From Coriobacteriia bacterium (lineage in GTDB: Bacteria > Actinomycetota > Coriobacteriia > Anaerosomatales > Anaerosomataceae), in the NCBI GenBank assembly GCA_026416035.1, contig JAOAFY010000007.1, positions 1 through 44,456 on the forward strand: a stretch of 44,456 bases of DNA, read 5' to 3'. Below are positions 16,508 to 22,374 of the stretch, in pieces. Each line of letters starts with the position of its first letter. The first letter of the stretch is position 1. The notes under the pieces are model-generated. The model saw nothing but the letters and a program-made list of their open reading frames with translations. It was not told where the DNA came from and did no database searches. A program made the translations under genes and the position numbers.

Positions 16508-16527
16508 GACCGCTTAGGCGACGAGCG

Positions 16528-16614
16528 GCCGCCGTGCAGAGTTTGTGTGCCGCTCGTCACACTATTGCGACATTCGGCAGAAAGTCCTGGCCTCGGCCTA
16601 CGCGCGTACCGATA
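16528..16614 (+). promoter_or_regulatory. LytTR-like box and conserved upstream block of the 889-residue surface protein
   Basis: The gap 16508-16661 has the block TGTGTGCCGCTCGTCAC (16544-16560), TATT (16563), CGGCAGA (16575) and CCGATA (16609). The same elements recur at identical offsets before the gene at 19541 (19387, 19406, 19418, 19452). GCCGCTCGT (16549-16557) fits 7 of 9 positions of the LytTR half-site consensus as I recall it. A poor second copy (GCCGCCGTG) lies 21 bases upstream. GACGAGCGGC (16520-16529) also pairs with GCCGCTCGTC, so part of this could be a terminator of the UPF0210 gene. Whether the block acts as promoter, operator or leader RNA cannot be settled by eye. Confidence 0.5.
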
Positions 16615-19371: not shown

Positions 19372-19457
19372 ACCGCTCATCTGCCCTGTGTGCCGTTTGT
19401 CACGGTATTTCGCCGCGCGGCAGACGAGCGTCAAGCGAGGTGGTGCGTAGGCCGATA
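19372..19457 (+). promoter_or_regulatory. Paired LytTR-like boxes and conserved block before the 136-residue protein
   Basis: ACCGCTCAT (19372-19380) and GCCGTTTGT (19392-19400) each match 8 of 9 positions of the LytTR half-site [TA][AC][CA]GTTN[AG][TG] and are direct repeats separated by 11 bases (12-13 is usual). The second is inside TGTGTGCCGTTTGTCAC (19387-19403), followed by TATT (19406), CGGCAGA (19418) and CCGATA (19452) with the same offsets as before the 889-residue gene. This supports a shared regulator. Confidence 0.55.
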
Positions 19458-19485
19458 CCCGCACCAGGAAGGTCGGACGACCTTC
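19442..19485 (+). promoter_or_regulatory. Two consecutive leader hairpins
   Basis: GGTGCG (19442-19447) pairs with CGCACC (19460-19465), leaving CCGATA in its 12-base loop. Three bases later GAAGGTCG (19468-19475) pairs perfectly with CGACCTTC (19478-19485). Both lie in the likely 5' leader of the 136-residue surface protein. They may stabilise an abundant mRNA or form an RNA switch. I could not match them to a known riboswitch class. Confidence 0.4.
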
Positions 19486-19540
19486 GACGATGGAAGAAAG
19501 CCCGGGCAGGGCGACCGGTTCGAAGAGAAAGGAACCAACC

Positions 19541-19951
19541 ATGAAGAGGACGATCCTGATCGCAGCTGCGGTCGCGGCGCTCGTGTTCGGCGTCGTGGCC
19601 TACGCGAACGCCGCTACCAGCGGCACGGTCACGGTGAGCGCCACCGTGCAGCCCCAGATGGAGATCACCGTCCCGGCGAGCGTGAACCTCGGCAACGTCG
19701 ACCCGTACACGCCGGCCACCGGCACCGTGACGGTCACCGGCAAGTCGAACAAGAACGCGACGCTCTCGGCATCTGTGAACAAGGGCACGTTCACCACGCT
19801 GTCGAGCACTGTCGCTCCGCTGTCGCCCTACAGCTGGGGCAAGGGCGGCAACCTGAGCTACAACGACAGTGTCACCGGCACGGTGGACTGGAGCATCGAC
19901 GCCGGCACCGTCGTGAGCGGTACGATCACCTACACGATCGCGCAGCCGTAA
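19541..19951 (+). CDS. Small secreted WxL-like surface protein
   Basis: A 136-residue exported protein. Residues 1-26 are a signal peptide (KRTILIAAAVAALVFGVVAYANA). The mature part is a single beta-sandwich-like domain rich in Thr, Ser, Val and Asn, beginning SGTVTVSATVQPQMEITV, with VNLGNVDP and ending VDWSIDAGTVVSGTITYTI. These three blocks match the C-terminal domain of the 889-residue neighbour. The W-S-I segment sits where WxL domains carry their second motif. It has no anchor, so it probably binds the wall or assembles on the surface. ATG 19541 has AAAGGAACC upstream. A strong terminator follows, so it can be expressed as a single-gene unit. Confidence 0.8.
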   Translation: MKRTILIAAAVAALVFGVVAYANAATSGTVTVSATVQPQMEITVPASVNLGNVDPYTPATGTVTVTGKSNKNATLSASVNKGTFTTLSSTVAPLSPYSWGKGGNLSYNDSVTGTVDWSIDAGTVVSGTITYTIAQP

Positions 19952-19971
19952 GCAGCGCAGCATAGCATCCC

Positions 19972-20001
19972 AAGAAGCCCCCGCGCATGCGGGGGCTTCT
20001 T
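19972..20001 (+). terminator. Strong intrinsic terminator
   Basis: AAGAAGCCCCCGC (19972-19984) and GCGGGGGCTTCTT (19989-20001) form a perfect 13-bp stem with a four-base loop, 20 bases after the stop of the 136-residue protein gene. The right arm ends in a T-rich stretch. The A-tract of the left arm would also let it work on the minus strand. Confidence 0.9.
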
Positions 20002-20060
20002 CGTCATTGCACCGGATCTTCGTGCTCGAACCGCTCGACGGCAGACCGTGTGCCCGCTCC

Positions 20061-20136
20061 CGAACGGTACCGTTCGTCAGATAAGCGGCTTGTGATGCCG
20101 TTCGTCCCTCATATTCTGCCGCTCAGTGCCGATATA
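20061..20136 (+). promoter_or_regulatory. Palindrome and LytTR-like boxes before the 98-residue protein
   Basis: CGAACGGTACCGTTCG (20061-20076) is a perfect 16-bp palindrome that includes ACCGTTCGT (20069-20077), a 9 of 9 match to the LytTR half-site consensus. GCCGTTCGT (20097-20105, 8 of 9) and GCCGCTCAG (20118-20126, 7 of 9) follow as direct repeats with the canonical 12-base gap. TATT (20112) and CCGATATA (20129) repeat elements found before the other two surface genes, but closer together. Confidence 0.55.
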
Positions 20137-22302: not shown

Positions 22303-22374
22303 GCCGCTCGTCCCCCAAGAGGCGCCAGTAGGCACGCACCTCGCGACGAGTATACCCCAGGTAGGCCGTTCGTC
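22303..22374 (-). promoter_or_regulatory. Promoter and possible autoregulatory site of the LytTR regulator
   Basis: On the minus strand TATACT (22349-22354) is a good -10 box about 80 bases before the regulator start. GCCGTTCGT (22365-22373) and GCCGCTCGT (22303-22311), both read on the plus strand, resemble the boxes before the surface genes. The latter also forms an inverted repeat with GAGCGGC (22290-22296), so it may act as a leader hairpin. Autoregulation is inferred. Confidence 0.4.

Follow-up and report, generated by a model that had tools for sequence, protein, structure and literature searches.

Predicted LytTR Operators with a 21-bp Period Precede WhiG-Type Promoters of Surface-Protein Genes and a Structured RNA in Anaerosomatales

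Results

The Surface-Protein Locus and Its LytTR-Type Boxes

The stretch of DNA analyzed here (the window, 44,456 nucleotides) is contig C92 from a metagenome-assembled genome of 1.58 Mb (G000, below "own genome"), whose relatives belong to the Coriobacteriia, order Anaerosomatales. The genes and sequence elements of interest are collected in Table 1. The products of P1, P2 and P3 carry signal-peptide-like N-termini, and the start codon of P4 overlaps the stop codon of P5. P5 is kept in nearly all of 60 relatives, P4 adjoins it in all but one of the 20 neighborhoods fetched, and the P5-P4 synteny holds across the order. The three surface genes had been labeled WxL-like, which Pfam does not support: no WxL domain was matched at the cut-offs in P1–P3, and among P1–P4 the WxL-interacting-protein domain (WxLIP_PGBD) is present in P4 only. 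The structural model of P2 (pLDDT 86) is an Ig/PapD-like β-sandwich that weakly resembles chaperone-usher pilins and TasA; with Z of about 8 to many unrelated families, the fold is too generic to assign a function. One relative contains three tandem P2 homologues (L049 6899-8866), two of which have their own CCGATA far upstream.

Table 1. Genes, predicted operators and promoters of the locus, and related elements elsewhere (window coordinates unless a contig is given)
Feature	Position	Strand	Description
P1	16662..19331	+	889 aa, secreted; FixG_C/VWA7 Ig-like and MG2 domains
P2	19541..19951	+	136 aa, secreted; predicted Ig-like β-sandwich
P3	20165..20461	+	98 aa, secreted
P4	20458..21528	-	membrane protein, WxLIP_PGBD type (DUF916-like)
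P5	21525..22268	-	response regulator, receiver + LytTR; presumed box binder
P1 inverted half-site	16520..16529	-	GCCGCTCGTC, reads GACGAGCGGC on +; changes parallel those of 16549 in genus
P1 operator	16547..16579	+	half-sites 16549 GCCGCTCGT and 16570 GACATTCGG, 21-bp direct repeat; R1 E 8.5e-15
P1 -10 core CCGATA	16609..16614	+	σ28/WhiG type, exactly 29 nt past operator
P2 outer (third) half-site	19372..19380	+	precedes 19392 by 20 bp; family members have a similar element
P2 operator	19390..19422	+	half-sites 19392 and 19413 (weak); R1 E 5.1e-14
P2 promoter	19431..19457	+	σ28/WhiG type, TCAA-N16-GCCGATA
P3 box A region	20058..20090		palindrome CGAACGGTACCGTTCG; 20069 ACCGTTCGT on +, 21-bp-spaced half-sites on -
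P3 boxes B (20097) and C (20118)	20097..20126	+	21-bp direct repeat; C between -35 and -10
P3 promoter	20109..20134	+	σ28/WhiG type, TCAT-N15-GCCGATA (TAAA-N15-GCCGATA in L035)
P5 leader half-site	22303..22311	+	about 35 nt upstream of start codon, antisense; kept in genus and most family members
Second half-site upstream of P5	22365..22373	+	not conserved in genus
LytTR#2 response regulator	G000:C59:24170-24871		behind the end of a histidine-kinase-like gene
Structured RNA copies, own genome	G000:C36:9001-9190; G000:C55:7930-8110		L192, L193
Structured RNA, further loci			L195-L256

The original prediction listed LytTR-type 9-mers (consensus [TA][AC][CA]GTTN[AG][TG]) upstream of P1, P2 and P3, and all of its positions and match counts were verified against the sequence: ACCGTTCGT at 20069 (9 of 9), GCCGTTCGT at 20097, ACCGCTCAT at 19372 and GCCGTTTGT at 19392 (8 of 9 each), and GCCGCTCGT at 16549 and GCCGCTCAG at 20118 (7 of 9 each). 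The direct-repeat gaps of 11 (19381-19391) and 12 bases (20106-20117) given there are likewise correct, and the boxes of all three genes are embedded in conserved blocks in three congeneric genomes (L033, L034, L035). The box at 16549 is real but had wrongly been taken as unpaired, since it has a 21-bp direct-repeat partner, GACATTCGG, at 16570; at P2, a third, weaker unit (19413) was absent from the earlier list. Both copies reported for the P5 leader, at 22303 and 22365, are present, but only the former is conserved in the genus. The LytTR-type nature assigned to the sites is supported by their 21-bp direct repeats and by a half-site identical to the published core of AlgR, CCGTTCGTC (PMC4064291), so that the operator appears to be of a known kind.

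Nine of the 19 strict boxes in the window fall in 683 bp, i.e., in four intergenic gaps that were picked post hoc (0.16 expected, Poisson P ~1e-13). Over the whole genome the picture is different. With one mismatch or none, GCCGTTCGTC has 618 matches vs. 509 for the reversed pattern, and a loose 21-bp pair (up to three mismatches) has 484 vs. 417 for the control; neither is enriched. A direct prediction of the regulon from the box, as claimed, is thus not supported: half-sites and loose pairs do not stand out from the controls, and the genome-wide motif scan proposed with it gave no useful enrichment over the reversed pattern. Specificity resides only in the composite operator-promoter or in a ladder of 3–4 units. 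Those of the other one-mismatch 21-bp pairs in the own genome that were examined sit in long open frames, except for C36:13518 (L260 ~519), where the pair is followed by TTGTTG-N17-TATCGT and by a short stretch with a strong GC-rich terminal hairpin; this element might be another small RNA. A further target is possibly an HD_5 HD-domain gene (G000:C17:12065; L109 ~1500-1587), which has a promoter of the form TAAC-N16-GCCGATAA and a half-site, GTGCCGTCTGTC.

P1 and P2 Share an Operator-Promoter Module

A 68-bp module is common to the regions upstream of P1 and P2. It consists of a 33-bp operator, made of two half-sites in a 21-bp direct repeat, followed by 29 nt and CCGATA. As GTGCCGYTYGTCACACTATTSCGCCGTACGGCA, 29 nt and CCGATA, the same arrangement is found in orthologues of several genera; the exceptions are L046 and L048, in which the -10 element is degenerate and lies one base nearer to the operator. 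Over 400 kb of sequence from a second-order Markov model, no module score exceeded 27/40, vs. 30–39 for nearly all real sites. The P2 promoter is unchanged in four congeners save for one spacer base. The sequence TGTGCCGCTCGTCACA at 16545-16560 could be read as a CRP-like site, a reading that was discarded, as P3 is without it.

A sequence-only model, R1, was built from 21 sites, which are themselves among its matches. Its only two strong matches in the own genome are both at this locus, with the next at E 0.026, and in relatives it matches the orthologous locus. In the non-training genomes G006, G018, G019 and G060, the matches are closely followed by P1 or P2 homologues; those in G048 and G057 lie near contig ends.

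The Surface Genes Have Predicted WhiG-Type Promoters

The -10 sequences of P1, P2, P3 and most orthologues are close to GCCGATAA: CCGATA follows G, C or A, and this element is a predicted σ28/WhiG-type -10. The -35 elements, expected to read TAAA with a spacer of 14–16 nt, are TCAA-N16 at P2 and TCAT-N15 at P3 (TAAA-N15 in L035), and no recognizable -35 is present at P1. A single WhiG/FliA-type σ gene over the family cut-off was found in 58 of the 60 relatives; the WhiG-like gene is split across the contig ends C63/C70 in the own genome and is intact in G001–G003. Within the genus, TMAA-N14-16-GCCGATA sites are located upstream of two genes resembling prepilin genes, of two kinase genes (one for a 5TMR_LYT histidine kinase, the other for a PAS-containing kinase) and of a small ORF. 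The count for the reversed-pattern control is much lower, though codon bias may favor the forward pattern. Two cultured Anaerosomatales species are non-motile and carry pili-like appendages (PMC9686372), and the type IV pili of Rubrobacter are under WhiG control (PMC8325347). WhiG RNA polymerase is therefore likely to transcribe P1–P3.

Several genes behind such promoters deserve mention in their own right. The prepilin-like genes, conserved in the genus, are at L171, L172, L175 and L176 and, in the own genome, at C41:14739-16196 (L169/L173). An 85-aa ORF stands directly behind a WhiG-type promoter at positions 1539-1793 of each of L165, L167 and L168; its own-genome version matches FlgM below the threshold (E 5e-4), so that a FlgM-like anti-σ factor for WhiG is possible. 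The 5TMR_LYT protein, a sensor that also has HisKA and HATPase domains (L166:34-1452, minus strand; also L190), may be the kinase partner of P5, an orphan regulator.

Box Ladders Precede a Structured RNA

The pair scan retrieved three-unit ladders with 21-bp steps at C36:8894/8915/8936 and C55:7823/7844/7865. Both are intergenic; downstream come a σ70-type promoter and a stretch, homologous between the two places, with a closing helix at its end. The sequence is a structured RNA of about 170 nt, present usually in 1–3 copies per genome across Anaerosomatales. A model of its first 79 nt (R2) detects it in 39 of 40 genomes and then in 8 of 9 genomes of a second, partly overlapping set. In the alignment of 51 full-length copies (about 162–175 nt), 95.9% of cells are paired, and 182 cells are changed on both sides, vs. 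63.9 in shuffles and 25–45 in slid controls. Rfam, including 6S RNA and all other families, gave no gathering-score match for five RNA loci, and no match up to E 5 over the RNA in L192/L193.

Ladders of 3–4 tandem half-sites precede the RNA at a fixed distance from its σ70 promoter. Scored along 59 RNA promoters, the LytTR consensus from the literature has its maxima at exactly -39, -60 and -81 from the -35 element, with 7.0, 6.7 and 6.7 of 9, the average over all offsets being 4.1. When the 177 boxes of these promoters are compared with [TA][AC][CA]GTTN[AG][TG], positions 2, 3 and 8 match in 96–99%, positions 4–6 in 67–84% and position 9 in 83%, whereas position 1 matches in 61% and frequently has a G. 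The RNA ladders are independent of the window, and by all appearances the box, in the form of a ladder, functions in gene regulation in this order. The earlier list of targets, three surface genes, is incomplete: the largest predicted target class is the structured RNA, which had gone unseen, as had the σ28/WhiG element.

The boxes are thus found at two promoter classes, those of P1–P3 (σ28/WhiG type) and that of the structured RNA elsewhere in the genome (σ70 type), and half-sites of the form [AG]CCGTTC[AG][GT] recur every 21 bp (gap of about 12 bp) in both: at 16549/16570 (P1), 19392/19413 (P2), 20097/20118 (P3) and in the RNA ladders. Measured from the -35 element, or its equivalent, the start of one half-site lies 39 bp upstream at P1, P2 and the RNA promoters and 40 bp upstream at P3; P1 and P2 have an additional half-site with its start at 18 bp. 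Given the 21-bp period, a multimer bound to such repeats would run along a single face of the DNA helix.

Discussion

The boxes probably serve a LytTR response regulator as operators at these two promoter classes; the neighboring P5 is the most likely candidate, and it would activate P1, P2 and the RNA. Binding of phosphorylated P5 to the boxes would be cooperative, would place the regulator directly on the upstream side of RNA polymerase and would activate the polymerase. At P1 and P2, both WhiG RNA polymerase and P5 would be required, and their surface proteins would thereby be tied to the WhiG regulon, which also covers type IV prepilin genes; the structured RNA would require only P5 and the housekeeping σ. 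The least certain elements of this explanation are the sign of regulation (at P1, P2 and the RNA we infer activation) and the choice between two LytTR proteins as the binder. Against the explanation count the missing -35 element at P1, a P3 box geometry that differs between the genus and the family, and the precedent of AlgR, whose sites are not always 12-bp-gapped repeats.

As to the sign, P3 and possibly P5 may instead be repressed through their boxes, which would create a switch between P1/P2 and P3. This is compatible with activation at the other promoters, and we regard it as quite possible, if somewhat short of an even chance. Boxes B and C of P3 overlap the -35/-10 region and lie astride the core promoter, so that either repression or fine tuning can be envisaged there, and the P5 leader box, whose antisense placement suggests autoregulation, is located downstream of the P5 -10 element. 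However, in the genus one P3 box is also at the activating distance, and LytTR proteins are able to activate from unusual positions.

As to the binder, the original prediction named the adjacent regulator. The operators do track the P5 locus across the family, but there are two LytTR genes in the own genome, the second of which (LytTR#2) encodes a regulator with its own LytS-type kinase. It is conceivable, though we think it rather unlikely, that the boxes are LytTR operators bound mainly by LytTR#2 or by both regulators. Most genomes of the order encode LytTR#2, whose LytTR domain shares with that of P5 the RVHR and RR motifs; such motifs are typical of LytTR domains. In G016 and G042, which have LytTR#2, the RNA-promoter boxes are kept and no P5 orthologue was detected, and binding or cross-binding by LytTR#2 is therefore possible. 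Conversely, G029 and G048 have P5 and no detected LytTR#2 and also keep the RNA-promoter boxes, and the surface operators co-occur with P5. In G059, boxes are present and no LytTR domain was found in an assembly that is 90% complete. An assignment through genomes with one LytTR gene was not decisive, as boxes persist in every class. P5 is favored because its leader has kept a box and none was seen near the LytTR#2 gene.

That the conserved blocks are RNA structures of mRNA leaders rather than protein-binding DNA is very improbable. The stretch 16520-16529 is a perfect inverted copy of 16549-16558, with matching changes in the genus. The operators, however, are upstream of the predicted transcription starts and hence outside the transcripts, the same half-sites occur upstream of unrelated σ70 promoters, and the leaders of P1–P3 have no Rfam match except for a rho-independent-like hairpin at ~19971-20002; a leader RNA or riboswitch was rejected on this ground. 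Chance GC-rich 9-mers can practically be dismissed: half-sites and loose pairs are indeed common genome-wide, but the spacing is kept across genera, the composite module is specific to a single locus and 21-bp ladders occur in dozens of genomes.

A wider reading, which we favor with slightly less confidence than operators of P5, is an order-wide circuit of the Anaerosomatales: a single 21-bp-ladder LytTR operator would drive the ~170-nt RNA family with σ70 and, with the WhiG-type σ, the surface locus, forming a two-input promoter that joins a two-component signal to a regulon that covers prepilins.

Parts of this arrangement have counterparts elsewhere. AlgR of Pseudomonas aeruginosa has the same half-site core, the same receiver and LytTR architecture and a link to surface structures, and it is not always found on 12-bp-gapped repeats (PMC4064291). 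Unlike here, AlgR sites are often single and scattered; the boxes described above form 21-bp direct repeats or ladders, in Actinobacteria, at WhiG-type promoters. VirR/VR-RNA and AgrA/RNAIII are cases of LytTR regulators that drive regulatory RNAs, also with LytTR direct repeats in front of the RNA promoter. The RNA considered here differs from theirs and has no Rfam match, and its 3–4 tandem units are in one fixed register throughout an order of free-living anaerobes. To our knowledge, activator-dependent σ28 promoters have rarely been documented. Those of E. coli aer and trg, activated by CRP (PMC2859248), resemble P1 and P2, for which we infer activator dependence, and differ from them in activator family, site spacing and regulated genes. 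In the Rubrobacter WhiG regulon, with its RsiG-c-di-GMP-WhiG switch, WhiG-type promoters also precede type IV pilus genes in a non-flagellated actinobacterial lineage (PMC8325347); in contrast, some WhiG-type promoters here bear a LytTR operator, and in the own genome a FlgM-like ORF stands behind one. As far as the open-access literature shows, a LytTR operator combined with WhiG-type promoters and with an RNA family not listed in Rfam is new.

For a widespread and barely cultivated order, these data would amount to a promoter code, in which a LytTR operator and a σ28-type promoter serve surface proteins and the same operator serves a structured RNA. The cells of this order carry pili-like appendages (PMC9686372). 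Both the RNA, with its strong covariation and conserved operator, and the putative activator-dependent σ28 promoters are now directly testable.
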